Of a stretch of DNA of 64,000 nucleotides, positions 53,663 to 61,599 are shown in pieces. The DNA comes from an uncultured candidatus Porisulfidus sp. GTDB taxonomy: Bacteria > Pseudomonadota > Gammaproteobacteria > Poriferisulfidales > Poriferisulfidaceae. The notes under the pieces were generated by a model. That model did not search any database and had not been told where the DNA came from. It saw nothing but the letters and a program-made list of their open reading frames with translations. A program made the position numbers and the translations under genes. Position 1 is the first letter of the stretch; the number at the start of each line of letters is the position of its first letter. The stretch lies in the NCBI GenBank assembly GCA_958431155.1, contig OY288106.1, positions 1,091,161 through 1,155,160 of the forward strand, given 5' to 3'.

Positions 53663-54595
53663 GTGGCCCCCCTGCGGCTGATTTTCGCCGGTAGCGGATC
53701 CTTCGGCGCTGTGGCGCTTGAGGGCCTGCAAACTAGCAGCCATACCCTCTGCGCGGTGCTGTCGCGGCCGGACCGGCCAGCCGGCCGGCACCTGAAGTTG
53801 CGCCCCACTCCCGTCTCGGAAATCGCCTTGGGTACCGGCTTGCCGCTGCTGCGGCCGGACACACTGGACGCCTCGGTACGCGACGAACTTGCGTCGCACC
53901 AGGCGGATGCCCTGGTAGTGGCGGATTTCGGACGACTGATTCCCGAATCCTGGCTTCGGCTGTGCCCAGGCGGCAGCCTGAATATCCATGCGTCGTTGCT
54001 GCCGCGATGGCGCGGAGCGGCACCGATAGCGCGTGCTATCGAAGCCGGTGATTCAACAGGCGGCTGCACCATCATGCTCATGGATGCGGGATTGGATACC
54101 GGCGACATCCTGGCTCAGGAATCCATTCCTTTCACTTCTGACCAGACTGCGGCCTCGGCCCGAGTCCGGCTGGCCCCGTTGGGCGTCAATCTACTGTTGC
54201 GGTACCTGTCCGACTTCGATCCGAAGCACCCGGCACGACAAGCACAGGACGAGGCGCTGGCCTGTCACGCGCCTGCCCTCCGCAAGGATCAGGCTCCTAT
54301 CGATTGGAGCAATCCGGCCAGTCGAATCGCCGCCAAGATCCGCGCTTTCAATCCTCATCCGGTCGCTACCACCCGCTGTGGCGACGAAACCCTGCGACTG
54401 TGGCAGGCGCAAGCGCACTCGACGCGAACCGCCGAGCCGGCAGGTAAGGTGTTGCGTTGCGATCGCACCGGCTTGTGGGTCGCGTGCGGTGAGGGACAGG
54501 TTCAGATCGCCGAGTTGCAGCGGGCCGGTGGGCGGCGGATGCCCGCGCAGGACTTCTGCAATGCCCGTCCCCTGACGGGTCTGAAACTTGCGTGA
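53663..54595 (+). CDS. fmt: Methionyl-tRNA formyltransferase
   Basis: 310 aa (E. coli 315). It formylates initiator Met-tRNA using 10-formyl-THF. Motifs are RLIFAGSGSFGAVALEGL, LNIHASLLPRWRGAAPIARA and LMDAGLDTGDILAQ. The start is GTG at 53663, inferred because homologues begin at this point; no strong ribosome binding site is visible. ADFGRLIP replaces the usual AYG..LP. rsmB, often next, is missing. Confidence 0.93.
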   Translation: MAPLRLIFAGSGSFGAVALEGLQTSSHTLCAVLSRPDRPAGRHLKLRPTPVSEIALGTGLPLLRPDTLDASVRDELASHQADALVVADFGRLIPESWLRLCPGGSLNIHASLLPRWRGAAPIARAIEAGDSTGGCTIMLMDAGLDTGDILAQESIPFTSDQTAASARVRLAPLGVNLLLRYLSDFDPKHPARQAQDEALACHAPALRKDQAPIDWSNPASRIAAKIRAFNPHPVATTRCGDETLRLWQAQAHSTRTAEPAGKVLRCDRTGLWVACGEGQVQIAELQRAGGRRMPAQDFCNARPLTGLKLA

Positions 54596-54648
54596 CAGGA
54601 TGCCGAGGTTGCTACACTACGGAATATTTTGGGACACCGAAACCCTCT

Positions 54649-55200
54649 ATGCGCACATTCTGGCTTCCGCTGCTGCTTTTCGGCACACTGCTGTGCATCA
54701 GTCCAGCCTGGGCGGAGTTGGTTCTGGCCTCCGTCACGAGCCATCAGGCCGCGCAGACCGTGCTGCTGGACCTGGAACTGGAAATCGATGATTCCAGATC
54801 CGAGATTCCACGCGCGCTTTTGCGCGGGGAAGTCTGGCTGGAAGTCGAAATCACCCTGGCTCAAAAGCGCCCCCTGTTCGGCCATCAACCGGTCGGCCGC
54901 CTTCATATCCTCCAGCGCCTCTCGTATGATCCCCTGCACAACGTCTACCAGGTCGCCCGCGTCAATCAGCGGGAACAGCAGACTTTCCCGAATCTGGCCG
55001 ATGCCTTGTCCCGGTTTCGGGTGCTGAACGCCATACCGGTCACACGCCTCGACTGGCTACTGCCGGAACTTGAGCAGTACCAGGGTGAAATACAGGCACG
55101 CCTCTACGCCAACCCGATTCCTATGGCTCCCTCGATCGGGTCGGCCCGAAGCCAGCCTCTGGACTGGCAAAGCGGAGCAGTCCGATGGCACCTGCCCTGA
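54649..55200 (+). CDS. DUF4390 periplasmic protein
   Basis: 183 aa. A signal peptide (MRTFWLPLLLFGTLLCISPA) is followed by a small beta-rich domain (LLRGEVWLEVEITLAQKRPL; LSYDPLHNVYQV). DUF4390 genes typically lie between the fmt region and an NtrY-like kinase, as here. It overlaps the kinase start by 16 bases. Function unknown; perhaps a periplasmic partner of the kinase. Confidence 0.8.
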   Translation: MRTFWLPLLLFGTLLCISPAWAELVLASVTSHQAAQTVLLDLELEIDDSRSEIPRALLRGEVWLEVEITLAQKRPLFGHQPVGRLHILQRLSYDPLHNVYQVARVNQREQQTFPNLADALSRFRVLNAIPVTRLDWLLPELEQYQGEIQARLYANPIPMAPSIGSARSQPLDWQSGAVRWHLP

Positions 55201-57395
55201 GATGGTTCCTGACCAGCCCTTGGCTGGTCATCGGCATGTTCCTGCTGCTGGTCGGTTCGCTGGCCATCATGGCCGACGCGACCCAAAGTTCCGGTCATTT
55301 CCACCGTTGGCAATGGTGGGTAGCCAGTTTCAACGGCGTGCTGGCCCTGGCGCTTCTGGCATTGATCGGTCTCAGCCTTTCCCGCTTGATCCAGAGGCTA
55401 CGCCGTCGCGAGGCAGGGTCGCGCTTGTCGCTACGCATGACCATCATGTTCGCCAGCTTCACATTGATTCCGACTGCGATGGTGTTCGGCTTCTCAGTGT
55501 GGCTGATTTTCAGCGGCATCGACAGTTGGTTTGACGTCGGAGTCGACGACACCCTGAACAAGGCGATGGAATTGAGCCGAACTTCAGTCGACATGCAAAT
55601 GCGGGATCGGCGTGCACAGGTGGAACGCCTGCTGCAGGAGCCCACCGATGCCGGTGATCCCGAAGCGATGGTCGTACGCATGCATAACTTGGTGGTTCAA
55701 ACGGGCGCGCTGGAAGCGTCATTGCTGGATTCAAGTAACAAGATCATTGCTTCCCAGGGAGAAGTGCCGGACATTCTGCCGGACCTACCAGGCGAGACCC
55801 AGCTCCAGCTACTGCGGGAAAGCGGCATCTACATGGCTCAGGAAGAACACCCGGAGCATGGCACCATCCTCCGCATCCTGATGCAGGTCCCATCGTTGGA
55901 TCGGGAGCTGCCCCTGACGAATCAGGAACTGCCCCTGACGAATCAGGAACTGCCCCTGACCCTGCAGATCCTGTATCCAGTATCCGAGTACATGCTCGGC
56001 CTGACCGACAGCGTCGAAAAAGCCTCCGTCACTTACCAGTTACTCCTGGAGTTGCGCGACCCCTTGAAGTACAACCTCACCTTTGTGATGTCTCTGGCAC
56101 TCCTGCTGGGGCTCCTGTTCGCGATGTGGGCAGCCTTGTATTCGGCGCAACGAATCCTGTCGCCGATTTCGGAACTTGCACGTGGCATCGAGGCTGTAGC
56201 GGCAGGCGAATACAGCCAGCGCCTTCCGGCCGGGCGGCGCGACGAATTGGGCCAAATGGTGTATTCCTACAACGACATGATCGAACGCCTGGCCAACGCC
56301 CGGTACGTGGCGGAAACCCGCCGCCTGATGATCGAGCAGCAGCATACCTATCTGCACACGGTCCTCGAGCACTTGTCCTCCGGCGTCATCAGCGTCGACG
56401 ACCGCAATGAGGTGATTACCGCCAACCGCGCCGCCGGCTCTATTCTGAACCTGGACATCGAGCGTTACATCAAACAGCCTATTTCCGTCCTGCGCCGGGA
56501 ACACCCCCAACTTGAGCCGCTGTGGAACCTGATGGATCGCCAACAGTACAGCGTCACCGACCTCAGGCGGCAATTGCAGATCAACGACGAGCTCAAGGTG
56601 CTGCATTGTCATGGCGCACAGTTGCCGAAGGGTGCCGGTTACGTGGTGGTATTCGAGGACATCACGGACCTGCAACAGGCGCAGCGCCAAGCTGCTTGGG
56701 GCGAGGTGGCCCGGCGGTTGGCCCACGAGATCAAGAACCCGCTGACCCCCATTCGCCTCTCGGCCGAACGGATGCAACACCGCATTCAACCTCGCCTCGC
56801 CACGGAAGATTCCGAGATCCTGAAACGTGCCACGCAGACCATCGTGCGACAGGTGGAATCGATGAAAACCATGATCGATGAATTCAGCGAATACTCTGCT
56901 GCCCGCTTCACGCCGGAATTGCTGGATCTGAACGCCTTGAGTACGGAAGTACTTGATTTGTACGTGGAGAATCGTTCCAAAATCTCTATTCGTGCTGAGC
57001 TGAGCGCGGCTCCCGCCTGGATCCAAGGAGATCCCGGACGCATACGCCAGTTGCTGCACAACCTCATCAAGAACGCAATGGAAGCCCAGGAAGAGCAAAC
57101 GAAGGGCACCATCATCCTAAGCACCGAGATGCAGGAAGGCACGGTCACTTTGAAAGTACGGGATGCCGGGCCCGGCTTTGCGCCGGAGATCATCGCCCGG
57201 GCCTTCGAGCCTTATGTCACCACCAAACCCAACGGAAACGGCCTGGGGCTTGCCGTGGTGTACCGGATCACGGAGGATCACCAAGGGCGGATTCGCGTAT
57301 ACAATGACCCAACGGGAGGTGGATGCGTGGAAATCGAATTCGACGCATCCCCACAGCCTTCGCAAGAGGTTCAGAGCCAAGTAGCTGTGGCATGA
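55185..57395 (+). CDS. ntrY: NtrY-like membrane sensor histidine kinase
   Basis: 736 aa. Helices at about 8-30, 43-64 and 86-110, then a periplasmic domain and a final helix near residue 295-320 bound a sensor region. HAMP (LYSAQRILSPISELARGIEA), PAS (VISVDDRNEVITANRAAGSI), HisKA with the phospho-His in LAHEIKNPLTPIRLSAERM, and HATPase (LLHNLIKNAMEAQEE, DAGPGFAPEI, GNGLGLAVVYRI) follow in order. The periplasmic part contains the repeat ELPLTNQ. The stop overlaps the regulator start. Confidence 0.92.
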   Translation: MAPALRWFLTSPWLVIGMFLLLVGSLAIMADATQSSGHFHRWQWWVASFNGVLALALLALIGLSLSRLIQRLRRREAGSRLSLRMTIMFASFTLIPTAMVFGFSVWLIFSGIDSWFDVGVDDTLNKAMELSRTSVDMQMRDRRAQVERLLQEPTDAGDPEAMVVRMHNLVVQTGALEASLLDSSNKIIASQGEVPDILPDLPGETQLQLLRESGIYMAQEEHPEHGTILRILMQVPSLDRELPLTNQELPLTNQELPLTLQILYPVSEYMLGLTDSVEKASVTYQLLLELRDPLKYNLTFVMSLALLLGLLFAMWAALYSAQRILSPISELARGIEAVAAGEYSQRLPAGRRDELGQMVYSYNDMIERLANARYVAETRRLMIEQQHTYLHTVLEHLSSGVISVDDRNEVITANRAAGSILNLDIERYIKQPISVLRREHPQLEPLWNLMDRQQYSVTDLRRQLQINDELKVLHCHGAQLPKGAGYVVVFEDITDLQQAQRQAAWGEVARRLAHEIKNPLTPIRLSAERMQHRIQPRLATEDSEILKRATQTIVRQVESMKTMIDEFSEYSAARFTPELLDLNALSTEVLDLYVENRSKISIRAELSAAPAWIQGDPGRIRQLLHNLIKNAMEAQEEQTKGTIILSTEMQEGTVTLKVRDAGPGFAPEIIARAFEPYVTTKPNGNGLGLAVVYRITEDHQGRIRVYNDPTGGGCVEIEFDASPQPSQEVQSQVAVA
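55905..55960 (+). repeat. In-frame 21-bp tandem repeat inside ntrY
   Basis: A 21-bp unit encoding ELPLTNQ occurs 2.7 times (55905-55925, 55926-55946, 55947-55960). Copies 2 and 3 are identical over their shared length; copy 1 differs at one base (gag for gaa). Unit length keeps the frame, so copy number can change without breaking the kinase. Confidence 0.9.
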
Positions 57396-58741
57396 GTCGC
57401 GAAACCATCCTGATTATCGATGACGAGTCCGATATCCGGGCTCAGATCCGGGACATCCTGTCCGATCACGGCTATCGGATCCTACAAGCTGATTCCGCCT
57501 CTGCTGCCCGCAAACTTGTTCGCCAGCAACCGGTAGACTTGGCGCTACTGGACATCTGGATGCCGGGCGAGGACGGGATGAGCCTGCTCAGGTCATGGCG
57601 CCACGAAGACACTTCGGAATTTCCTATTCTCATGATGTCCGGACACGGCAATATCGAAACCGCGCTGGAAGCCACCCGGCTTGGAGCCTGGCATTACCTG
57701 GAAAAGCCTTTCGCCATGGACAAGTTGCTGCTGAGCGTATCGCGGGCATTGGAAACCTATCGCCTGCGCCGGCAAAACCGCATCCTGTCCAAAGATTCGG
57801 CCGCCACCGAGCAGCTGATCGGCGACAGTCCGGAAATCCGCCGCTTGCGGGAGCAGGCGCAAGCGTTCGGCGACGACGGGAACCCGGTCTTGATCCTCGG
57901 CGAACCAGGCTGCGAGTTCCTGGCACTCGCCAACCACATTCACTACAACGGTACCCGCCATCACTGGCAACTTGTCATCGGCAACGGCCAAAACCTGAAC
58001 CAGCGCCTGTTGGAGGAAACCCCGGGCAACGGCACCTGTCTGCTGCTTGAGGCACACGGCGGCACCCTGCTCATGAATCCGTTGGACCAACTGACGGTCA
58101 AAACCCAGAAACGCCTGCTCTCCGTGCTTGAAAATCGCCACCTTTTGCAAGGGAACGGCACTGCCACGCCCATCGACGTGCAGCTCATCGCCACCCTGTA
58201 CCAGAGACCCGAAACGGCATTAGCCTCAAACATCTTGAACCCTGCGCTGTATGCCCGGCTGGCACCTCGCACGCTGGTGCTCCCGCCATTGCGCGAACGA
58301 ACCCGGGACATCCCGGAACTGGTCGAGCACTATGTCACCCGTTATTGTGCACGGGACAATTTGCCCATGCGCAGTTTTCCGCCTAATGTGATGGAGGCAC
58401 TGTGCAAGCACGACTGGCCAGACAACATGTACGAACTGCGTCGCCTTGTCTACCAACTCCTGATCAGCGGTAATGGAACTGAAGTCGGCCTGGCGGAAGT
58501 CGACCGCCTACTGCACCCGGCGCCGCAGAGCGATGCCCTCCCCAGCGGGCTGGAAAACCTGATGGCGCTACCCTATCGGGAGGCCCGAGCCCAGTTCGAG
58601 CAGATGTACTATCAATTTCAAATCGAGCAAAGCGGGGGCAGCATGAAGCGATTGTCCGACAGCACCCACATGGAGCGGACCTACCTTTACAGGAAATTGC
58701 GCGACCTCGGCATCGGACGCCCGCGGGAATCCTCCACTTGA
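57392..58741 (+). CDS. ntrX: NtrX-like response regulator with non-functional AAA+ domain
   Basis: 449 aa. The receiver domain is intact: ILIIDDESDI, phospho-Asp in LALLDIWMPGEDG, and LEKPF Lys. The central region keeps the sigma-54 activator outline (LIGDSPEIRRLREQA, LPPLRERTRDIPEL) but Walker A is GEPGCEFL (170-177), Walker B is GGTLLMNP (223-230) and the GAFTGA segment is missing. Sensor II Arg is also lost (DNMYELRR). A Fis-type helix-turn-helix ends it (HMERTYLYRKLRDLGI). It can probably bind DNA and be phosphorylated, but not hydrolyse ATP or activate sigma-54. Confidence 0.9.
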   Translation: MSRETILIIDDESDIRAQIRDILSDHGYRILQADSASAARKLVRQQPVDLALLDIWMPGEDGMSLLRSWRHEDTSEFPILMMSGHGNIETALEATRLGAWHYLEKPFAMDKLLLSVSRALETYRLRRQNRILSKDSAATEQLIGDSPEIRRLREQAQAFGDDGNPVLILGEPGCEFLALANHIHYNGTRHHWQLVIGNGQNLNQRLLEETPGNGTCLLLEAHGGTLLMNPLDQLTVKTQKRLLSVLENRHLLQGNGTATPIDVQLIATLYQRPETALASNILNPALYARLAPRTLVLPPLRERTRDIPELVEHYVTRYCARDNLPMRSFPPNVMEALCKHDWPDNMYELRRLVYQLLISGNGTEVGLAEVDRLLHPAPQSDALPSGLENLMALPYREARAQFEQMYYQFQIEQSGGSMKRLSDSTHMERTYLYRKLRDLGIGRPRESST

Positions 58742-58767: not shown

Positions 58768-60129
58768 ATGAAGATCATCATTCTCGGAGCGGGCCGGATT
58801 GGCAGTTCGCTGGCCATCGGGCTGGCGCAGGAAAACAACGAGATCACGCTGGTCGACCTGGAAGAGCGAAATCTGAGCAACATCGGTAACCGCGTCGATT
58901 TGCGCACCCTATGCGGCAATGGGGCGCACCCCAACATCCTGCAGCAGGCCGGTGCCGAAGACGCCGACATGCTGGTGGCGCTGACCCGGAGCGACGAAGT
59001 CAACATGATCGCCTGCCAGGTCGCTTACAGCCTGTTCAACACGCCCCAACGAATCGCCCGGGTACGGGCCTCGGAATACCTGACGCAGGGCAACCTGTTC
59101 ATGACGGAAGCCCTGCCCATCGACGTCCTGATCAGCCCGGAGCAGATCGCTGCGCGCAGCATTGAGCGATTGATTCGTCGCCCAGGCGCATTACAAGTGC
59201 TTGAGTTTGCGGATGGTTTAATGCAACTCGCCGTGGTTCGCATCTCCCCCGGTGCCCCGGCTGCCGGCCGCAACCTGCTTGACCTTCACCACAGCCTCCC
59301 CGACGTCCCGTTGCACGTGGCCGCCGTCTACCGCGACCAGCAGGCCCTTAAGCCGGAGCCTGAACTGCGTCTCAAGGCGCATGATGAAATCTTCGTGCTC
59401 ACACGAACGGACCAGCTCAATACCGTCGTGGAAAAATTGCGAGCCCAGCTCGGCCGGGGTCGTCATGTCCTGATCGCGGGAGGCGGCAATGTCGGTCACG
59501 GTGTCGCAGCACAGTTGGAATCGGATTGCCACGTCAAGGTCATCGAGCACAGTGAATATCGCGCACGCTACCTGTCGGAGCAGTTGACCCGGGCGACGGT
59601 GCTCCAGGGAGATGCGACCGACGACAAACTGCTGCTGGACGAGAACATCCGGGATATGGACGTCTTCTGTGCGTTGACCAATAACGAGGAGGCCAACATC
59701 CTGTCGGCCATGCAGGCCAAGCGCATGGGAGTGCCCACCACGATCGCCCTGATCAACCGTCCCTCCTACATCGACCTGATCGAACGCTCGATCGACATCG
59801 CGGTCTCCCCGCAGCAGGCCACGCTGAGCGAGCTGTTGACGCACATTCGCCGAGGCGATGTTCTGGCGGTACACTCACTACGGCGCGGACGCGCCGAAGC
59901 ACTGGAAGCCAAAGCCCATCACACGGCGGCCGCGATCGGCCAGCCGATCGGACAACTCAATCTGCCAGCCAGCGTCGACATCGCCGCGCTGGTCCGCGAC
60001 GACGAAATGATTCTGCCAAATGCGCTCACCACGATCAAGCCCGACGACCACGTGATCCTGTTCATCAGCGACAAACGATACCTGAAGGATGTCGAGCGAC
60101 TGTTTCAGGTCAGCGCCACATTCTTCTGA
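58768..60129 (+). CDS. trkA: Trk potassium uptake regulator TrkA
   Basis: 453 aa cytoplasmic NAD(H)-binding subunit with two RCK domains. The two Rossmann motifs are IILGAGRIGSSLAIGL (start) and VLIAGGGNVGHGVAAQLE (near residue 233). It gates the TrkH channel. It starts 26 bases after the ntrX-like gene, so regulator and potassium genes are co-transcribed. Confidence 0.96.
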   Translation: MKIIILGAGRIGSSLAIGLAQENNEITLVDLEERNLSNIGNRVDLRTLCGNGAHPNILQQAGAEDADMLVALTRSDEVNMIACQVAYSLFNTPQRIARVRASEYLTQGNLFMTEALPIDVLISPEQIAARSIERLIRRPGALQVLEFADGLMQLAVVRISPGAPAAGRNLLDLHHSLPDVPLHVAAVYRDQQALKPEPELRLKAHDEIFVLTRTDQLNTVVEKLRAQLGRGRHVLIAGGGNVGHGVAAQLESDCHVKVIEHSEYRARYLSEQLTRATVLQGDATDDKLLLDENIRDMDVFCALTNNEEANILSAMQAKRMGVPTTIALINRPSYIDLIERSIDIAVSPQQATLSELLTHIRRGDVLAVHSLRRGRAEALEAKAHHTAAAIGQPIGQLNLPASVDIAALVRDDEMILPNALTTIKPDDHVILFISDKRYLKDVERLFQVSATFF

Positions 60130-60132
60130 CCC

Positions 60133-61599
60133 ATGCCTATCCAGTACCGGGTCGTCCAGCGCCTGCTCGGCTACCTGCTGACATTTTTCAGCTTCGGCAT
60201 GTTGCCGCCCCTAGCCCTGAGCCTAGTATTGGACGACGGCGAGGCGTTCTCGTTCCTGTATGCATTCTTCTTGCTGTTCCTCCTCGGCACCGCCTTGTGG
60301 GTTCAAGCCGCACACCGCGCGCCCCGCAGGCAACCGCTGCGACTGCGAGACGGGTTTGTGGTCGTTTCATTGTTCTGGATCGGCCTGGGGCTGGCTGGCT
60401 CCATCCCCTTGTACGTCTCACCTTACCTTCAACTCAGCGGAACCGACGCCGTGTTCGAAGCGGTCTCGGGGTTGACCACGACCGGCGCAACCGTGTTGTC
60501 GGGCCTGGACGACATGCCCTCCTCCCTCCTGTTTTACCGCCAGTTCCTGCAGTGGGCCGGCGGCCTCGGCATCATCGTACTGGCGGTGGCAGTCCTGCCC
60601 CTGGTCGGTATGGGCGGCGTGCAGTTGTATCAGGCCGAAGCGCCACACTCCCTGACCGAACGGCGCCTGACTCCGCGCATCGCTGAAACGGCCAAGGTTC
60701 TATGGTACCTATACTTCACCCTGACGGCGGCCTGTGGGCTCGCGTACTGGGGTGCCGGCATGAGTCCGCTGGATGCCATCTGCCATGCGTTTTCCACCGT
60801 GGCTATCGGCGGCTTTTCCACTCATGATGCAAACCTCGGTTATTTTGACAGTGCCCTGATCGAGATGATCGCGATCATTTTCATGATCATGGCGGGAGCG
60901 AATTTCGGACTGCATTACCTCGCCCTGAGCCGGCGCAGCCTGCAACCGTACAGCCGGAACGGGGAATTCCGGACCTATGCCGTGGTGCTGGCTTCGGTGG
61001 GTGCCATCTGCATCAGCTACCTGTGGGCCACTTCTTTCTACAGCGACCCCCTCGAGACCGTGCGCCACGGACTGTTCCAAACCGTGTCGATTGCCACCAC
61101 CACCGGCTTCACCACCACCGGCTACGACCACTGGCCCGCGTTCGTTTCCACGTTGCTTTTGCTTGCCAGTTTCATCGGCGGCTGCGTCGGCTCCACTGGC
61201 GGCGGGATGAAAGTAATCCGCTTTTTGCTGATGGTCAAGCATAGCGGAAAGGAACTGTATCGAATCATCCACCCCACCGTGCAAGTTACGGTTCGGGTCG
61301 GAGACCGCGTGATCACGCAGAGTGCCCTGCAGTCGGTTTGGGGATTTTTCGCCGCCTACATCACCACGTTCACTGTCCTTTTCCTGCTGTTGATGATGAC
61401 CGGCCTGGACCAAGTCAGTGCATTCTCGGCGGTGGGCGCCACTCTCAACAACCTGGGCCCCGGGCTTGGAGAAGTCAGCCAAAACTACGCCTCGGTCAGC
61501 GACTTCGGCAAGTGGCTGTTGTGCGCCAGCATGATATTCGGTCGCCTGGAAGTCTTCACCCTGCTGGTAATCCTGACCCCGGCGTTCTGGCGCCGGTAA
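60133..61599 (+). CDS. trkH: Trk potassium uptake channel TrkH
   Basis: 488 aa, about ten helices and four P-loops. The selectivity segments are visible: SGLTTTGATVL, AIGGFSTHD, TTTGFTTTGYD and TLNNLGPGLG. It follows trkA by three bases. The stop overlaps the methyltransferase start. Confidence 0.96.
   Translation: MPIQYRVVQRLLGYLLTFFSFGMLPPLALSLVLDDGEAFSFLYAFFLLFLLGTALWVQAAHRAPRRQPLRLRDGFVVVSLFWIGLGLAGSIPLYVSPYLQLSGTDAVFEAVSGLTTTGATVLSGLDDMPSSLLFYRQFLQWAGGLGIIVLAVAVLPLVGMGGVQLYQAEAPHSLTERRLTPRIAETAKVLWYLYFTLTAACGLAYWGAGMSPLDAICHAFSTVAIGGFSTHDANLGYFDSALIEMIAIIFMIMAGANFGLHYLALSRRSLQPYSRNGEFRTYAVVLASVGAICISYLWATSFYSDPLETVRHGLFQTVSIATTTGFTTTGYDHWPAFVSTLLLLASFIGGCVGSTGGGMKVIRFLLMVKHSGKELYRIIHPTVQVTVRVGDRVITQSALQSVWGFFAAYITTFTVLFLLLMMTGLDQVSAFSAVGATLNNLGPGLGEVSQNYASVSDFGKWLLCASMIFGRLEVFTLLVILTPAFWRR

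Follow-up and report, generated by a model that had tools for sequence, protein, structure and literature searches.

What becomes of an NtrC-type regulator when the catalytic residues of its ATPase are gone, and can such a protein still switch transcription? The question is raised by a gene in a 64,000-nucleotide stretch of DNA from an uncultured candidatus Porisulfidus sp., a gammaproteobacterium (GenBank assembly GCA_958431155.1, contig OY288106.1, positions 1,091,161 to 1,155,160, forward strand); this whole stretch is called the window here, and positions are counted from its first letter unless a contig handle is given. The gene, ntrX (57392..58741, + strand), has an open frame of 449 amino acids and encodes an NtrX response regulator with a catalytically dead AAA+ domain. 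NtrX is one half of a common bacterial two-gene signalling pair. A first-pass annotation of the sequence had described the protein as carrying an erased ATPase between intact ends, and had proposed a sigma-54-independent DNA-binding switch newly made from an NtrC-type protein and placed with the Trk potassium system. Our analysis supports this proposal in part, and we consider it likely that the protein is a phosphorylation-switched DNA-binding protein acting with the housekeeping-sigma polymerase, in which the dead ATPase serves as a nucleotide-independent scaffold.

As judged by full-length orthology and by adjacency to ntrY, the gene is a genuine ntrX of the NtrYX family. The protein shares 35–44% identity over its whole length with NtrX of other Gammaproteobacteria, and its best solved relative by sequence, Brucella NtrX (5m7n, E 2.8e-68), is also the best structural match for its predicted fold. 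The NCBIfam model NAssimRespRegNtrX is the top model for the protein, at 305.6 bits and thus under the curated cut-off of 600. The first bases of ntrX and the stop of ntrY share 4 bp (ATGA), so the clean frame coupled to the kinase gene was correctly recognized in the first-pass annotation. The protein contains a receiver, an AAA+ domain, and a Fis-type helix-turn-helix in that order, with the receiver, AAA+ core, and lid detected by Pfam and the helix-turn-helix by alignment and structural model.

The catalytic losses were evaluated in an alignment of the window NtrX, four same-genus orthologues, and 99 other gammaproteobacterial NtrX. Within the AAA+ core (57815..58291, residues 142-300), which appears catalytically dead with a fold predicted to be intact, the Walker A position (57899..57925) reads GEPGCEFLA: in the motif GEPGCEFL the Lys is replaced by Phe and the following residue by Leu, with the loss of both the Lys and the Ser/Thr/Glu. 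The GAFTGA loop position (58007..58063) is occupied by LLEETPGNGTCLLLEAHGG, the Walker B position (58064..58081) reads TLLMNP with Asp-Glu replaced by Asn-Pro, the first arginine finger has changed from FRED to LNPA, and the sensor II Arg (residue 347, 58430-58432) is a Tyr. The AAA+ lid (58292..58537) remains recognizable (Pfam AAA_lid_14, 1.2e-14). The reported loss of Walker A, Walker B, GAFTGA, and the sensor II Arg is thus borne out by the alignment. A P-loop hidden elsewhere in the protein is ruled out by the lack of any GK dipeptide and by the AlphaFold2 model (mean predicted local distance difference test score 86), which puts the P-loop (beta 166-169, loop 170-175, helix 176-185) and Walker B (beta 225-228) at the degenerate segments; this structure-based search, proposed at the outset as the check that could overturn the erased-ATPase claim, recovered no working P-loop or Walker B.

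The receiver (57407..57736, residues 6-115; Pfam Response_reg 8e-28, 97 bits) is intact: D10, D11, D54, S83, and K105 are all present and are invariant in 99/99 other NtrX, with the phospho-acceptor D54 encoded at 57551-57553. At the other end, the C-terminal region (58571..58714) is assigned as a Fis-type helix-turn-helix from its aligned recognition helix, ERTYLYRKL, which is nearly the family sequence ERTHLYRKL, and from three predicted helices (395-413, 418-425, and 429-438). Of the two ends described as intact, the first is therefore preserved in every receiver residue listed, and the second is preserved by alignment and model.

The genome, a single contig of 1.59 Mb that is 98% complete, offers no sigma-54 for such a protein to activate. 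No rpoN was found with TIGR02395 in this genome or in five same-genus genomes, and the sigma-54 activator-interacting domain was likewise not found in the window genome. In several relatives, rpoN lies directly 3' of lptB and before hpf; in the window genome, this slot (C1:257500-267500; L142/L170) holds ~3.3 kb of unrelated ankyrin-/EF-hand-type frames on the opposite strand and no rpoN, and is followed by hpf, ptsN, rapZ, ptsH, and ptsI in order. NtrX is also the only NtrC-type AAA+ protein of the genome, the other Sigma54_activat Pfam match being weak. All the marks of a sigma-54 activator are thus missing, namely the GAFTGA loop, the Walker A and B residues, and a sigma-54 gene in the genome. 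Because there is no rpoN and ntrX is the sole NtrC-type AAA+ gene, sigma-54 activation is excluded and the sigma-54 independence put forward in the first-pass annotation is nearly certain; any regulation in a cell that lacks sigma-54 must go through the promoters of other sigma factors. Separately, the least complete same-genus draft genome (G005; 76% complete, 210 contigs) contains, at a contig edge, part of another NtrC-type activator with a strong match (C78:4-369), which could be contamination.

The eroded state is shared across the genus and is under selection. Four other same-genus genomes carry ntrX with open frames, 88–93% identity, and the same degenerate motifs: Walker A is GEPGCEFL, Walker B is LLMNPL or LFMNPL, the first arginine finger (FRED elsewhere) is LNPA or LDPA/LDPS, and the sensor II Arg is replaced by Tyr or His, i.e., all four elements are lost in five genomes. 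We estimated ratios of non-synonymous to synonymous substitution rates (dN/dS) pairwise within the genus, at a synonymous divergence (dS) of ~1, with the range for the lid taken from well-diverged pairs. The receiver and the C-terminal region each gave 0.02-0.03, the AAA+ core ~0.05, and the lid 0.07-0.17, while in the more distant pairs of the same genomes the neighboring genes gave 0.05 (trkA), 0.07 (trkH), 0.07 (ntrY), 0.16 (plrP), and 0.15-0.18 (fmt). Every ntrX domain is thus under purifying selection, with roughly equal constraint on trkA and on the dead AAA+ core. A frameshift, pseudogene, sequencing error, or chance is ruled out by the five open frames, the motifs shared within the genus, and the low dN/dS.

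In a maximum-likelihood tree, by contrast, the stem of the genus measures 2.46 changes/site with almost no change within the genus, a clear contrast of burst and then stasis, although the long branches make the placement of the genus uncertain. The AAA+ core is the most diverged part, with 28.6% identity to other NtrX vs 52.5% for the receiver. This very long stem and strongly diverged core, along with the raised dN/dS of the lid and the excision of the AAA+ domain in other lineages described below, would be expected if the AAA+ domain were a decaying relic, drifting after rpoN loss and heading to excision while only the receiver and DNA-binding ends still matter. The frame is nevertheless open in all five genomes, the fold is predicted intact with high confidence, and a core dN/dS close to that of trkA largely refutes decay, which makes this scenario unlikely. 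The term "erased ATPase" is then apt for catalysis and not for the domain itself, which is strongly constrained.

Strong constraint on a catalytically dead domain could also mean that the AAA+ domain has turned into a sensor whose former nucleotide pocket takes up another ligand, in the manner of FleQ and VpsR with cyclic di-GMP. The predicted AAA+ fold is kept (template modeling score ~0.8-0.86 to solved activator domains), and VpsR and FleQ are among its structural matches. However, no GGDEF domain was detectable in the window genome, on which ground we rejected a cyclic di-GMP pocket, and nothing indicates any other ligand, so that we view a ligand-sensing role as rather improbable. The Sigma54_activat match, weak as it is (57 bits vs 171 bits for a relative), still lies above the Pfam cut-off, which would favor a protein that continues to work as a sigma-54 activator or ATP-dependent remodeler through an unusual active site. 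This is nevertheless extremely improbable, since rpoN was not found in the genus and the GAFTGA loop is gone, along with the Walker A Lys, the Walker B Asp-Glu, the first arginine finger, and the sensor II Arg.

In the phosphorylation-switched scheme that we favor, NtrY, probably modulated by a periplasmic DUF4390 protein, would phosphorylate NtrX at D54, and this would alter the dimer or oligomer state of NtrX. The regulator would then repress or activate housekeeping-sigma promoters through its C-terminal Fis-type helix-turn-helix, with neither sigma-54 nor ATP hydrolysis involved. The AAA+ domain would no longer bind or hydrolyze ATP normally and would be kept as a folded scaffold joining the receiver to the DNA-binding domain, as its constraint and predicted fold suggest. 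An intact receiver, a constrained C-terminus, and a kinase with intact HEIKNP and ATP-binding motifs all fit the DNA-binding switch originally suggested, and with a recognition helix so close to that of the family, the operator may be unchanged from the ancestral state. Several observations weigh against this scheme. The Pfam HTH_8 model was not reached on the window NtrX although it matches relatives, a promoter and terminator scan yielded nothing above shuffles, and neither target promoters nor DNA sites nor expression data were found. In addition, NtrC of Rhodobacter capsulatus, which lacks GAFTGA, remains dependent on ATP binding, and Caulobacter NtrC on its Walker A and B residues (PMC10274813), so that such proteins do not as a rule dispense with ATP.

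More tentatively, the domain may have been rebuilt rather than simply retained. Here, after the loss of sigma-54, the AAA+ domain of the genus would have become a module for assembly or sensing that works independently of nucleotides, with every catalytic residue removed in one burst before tight selection set in. NtrX would then be a pseudo-ATPase transcription factor whose dead domain had gained a new function and kept it, distinct from both P-loop-intact NtrX and the AAA+-less NtrX of beta-proteobacteria; we see this as possible and somewhat doubtful.

Comparison across the family indicates that much of this erosion is not particular to the window. GAFTGA is absent from the window NtrX and from 99/99 other NtrX, rpoN-positive genomes included, and sigma-54 independence is thus probably an old trait of the NtrX family; the switch was, by the same observation, probably not newly made here. 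Of the 99 other NtrX, 63 have Lys at the Walker A Lys position, 31 have Arg, and the remaining 5 have neither, and both Walker B acids are kept in 36/99. As a control, the same alignment was made for 24 NtrC-type paralogues drawn from the genomes sampled: 23 of these keep GxxGxGK and LDE, nearly all of them with GAFTGA or a one-residue variant. Since the paralogues keep their motifs, the erosion is specific to NtrX, with the window genus at its far end.

Related lineages have gone different distances along this path. The five NtrX without a Walker A Lys or Arg (L013, L072, L074, L079, and L096) form one clade; like the window protein, they belong to the same gene family and show the loop deletion and loss of the Walker A Lys, but unlike it they retain the sensor II Arg and one or both of the Walker B acids. 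A relative from the same order (G007), in which no rpoN was found, has kept Walker A, has RD at Walker B, and has a shortened domain. Two genomes of family f92 (L120, L125), which belong to a different clade, have lost both Walker motifs independently of the window genus. These carry a short, divergent rpoN (frames of 386-416 amino acids; L150/L151 in G108 and G204), beside which a strong activator gene is still present. Finally, in G393, G107, and G203 the whole AAA+ domain is gone, leaving a receiver-linker-helix-turn-helix NtrX directly after ntrY.

Because G107 and G203 have rpoN and yet an excised AAA+ domain, excision does not need sigma-54 loss. A strict rule by which rpoN loss causes AAA+ loss is ruled out by these two genomes, by the Walker erosion common in rpoN-positive genomes, and by G382, which has intact motifs and another activator although no rpoN was detected, probably through an assembly gap; over the same concern, we left a number of large rpoN-negative drafts out of account. 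Other patterns were also seen. In G393, rpoN is cleanly gone between lptB and hpf, and yet the gene at C1:768249-769397 (L131) encodes an NtrC-type activator that carries GAFPGA and whose Walker motifs are intact. The rpoN-less G100 (L124/L158) has a short receiver-helix-turn-helix gene downstream of rpoC that resembles an AAA+-less NtrX, which was not counted as NtrX since ntrY is not adjacent. In sister family f2 of the same order (G006-G019), most genomes show the reverse of the window genus: rpoN is retained, a GSFTGA-type activator is present in those checked, and a full NtrX was not found.

Taken together, the window NtrX is an extreme case of a drift seen several times in the NtrX family. 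The deletion of the loop, the erosion of Walker residues, and the link to Trk are all common among family members, and the literature describes a sister group from which the whole domain is missing. Unusual here are how far the erosion has gone and how selection has acted, i.e., a full-length NtrX that has lost every catalytic residue named in the first-pass annotation, in a sigma-54-less genome and under strong purifying selection. The change from sigma-54 motor protein to ordinary switch has usually been argued from single cases, and here it can be followed as a series in one orthologous gene: P-loop kept and loop lost in most Gammaproteobacteria, Walker A Lys lost in the L013 clade, Walker A and B lost in the window genus and f92, and the domain excised in G393, G107, and G203. 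With this natural control set, one can test at which step the regulator becomes independent of ATP, and if anything is still done by the dead domain. It also means that "sigma-54-dependent regulator" is the wrong annotation label for the NtrX family.

The gene order around ntrX is fmt, the DUF4390 gene (plrP), ntrY, ntrX, trkA, and trkH. The plrP-type gene (54649..55200, + strand; Pfam DUF4390, 2.3e-14) lies directly 5' of the kinase gene and overlaps it, and its periplasmic product has been proposed as the third component of the NtrYX pair (PMC13001219). The membrane sensor kinase gene ntrY (55185..57395, + strand) encodes NtrY_N, HAMP, PAS, HisKA, and HATPase_c domains, with HEIKNP intact in HisKA and the ATP-binding domain as expected; in the sensor part, before the HAMP domain is reached, in-frame direct repeats at ~55907-55960 yield ELPLTNQELPLTNQELPLT. 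Two further open reading frames, used as synteny queries, were read from sequence as the potassium uptake regulator trkA (58768..60129, + strand) and the potassium channel subunit trkH (60133..61599, + strand). The Trk genes thus adjoin the pair as described, although not as a special feature, trkA being found just 3' of ntrX in 48/71 loci with enough flank. On the other side, rsmB lies 5' of plrP in 53/62 comparable loci and not in the window (54595-54649), where fmt occupies its place; no full rsmB was found in the window genome, in which the rsmB model finds a NusB-like match only.

The closest described arrangement is the PlrPSR-type NtrYX locus of beta- and gammaproteobacteria (PMC13001219). 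Bordetella PlrR and other beta-proteobacterial NtrX share with the window the NtrYX family, a DUF4390 gene 5' of the kinase, and trkAH 3', whereas PlrPSR-type loci have rsmB 5' of plrP and the window cluster does not. In Bordetella, PlrR is active when phosphorylated, its phosphorylated form has been inferred to be essential, and a genetic claim holds that the DUF4390 protein limits the phosphatase activity of the kinase (PMC13001219). By analogy, PlrR resembles the window NtrX as we read it, a phosphorylated receiver and DNA-binding protein with no working AAA+ ATPase. However, beta-proteobacterial NtrX is stated, citing earlier work, to lack the AAA+ domain (PMC13001219), whereas in the window NtrX this domain is present, predicted to be folded, constrained, and dead. 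Brucella abortus NtrX (5m7n, 5m7o, and 5m7p; 31-33% identity) has the same receiver, AAA+, lid, and Fis-type helix-turn-helix and likewise no GAFTGA loop, but it keeps the GPSGAGKE and LYLDEV residues lost here and, according to the structure titles, was crystallized with ATP and ADP. Caulobacter NtrX also lacks GAFTGA, and the GAFTGA-less NtrC proteins of R. capsulatus and Caulobacter, along with VspR, are NtrC-type regulators that act at sigma-70 promoters without the sigma-54 contact loop (PMC10274813); together with PlrR, they are precedents for the scheme favored here. Unlike these two NtrC proteins, with their reported dependence on ATP binding or on Walker residues, VspR is reported to work without ATP (PMC10274813).

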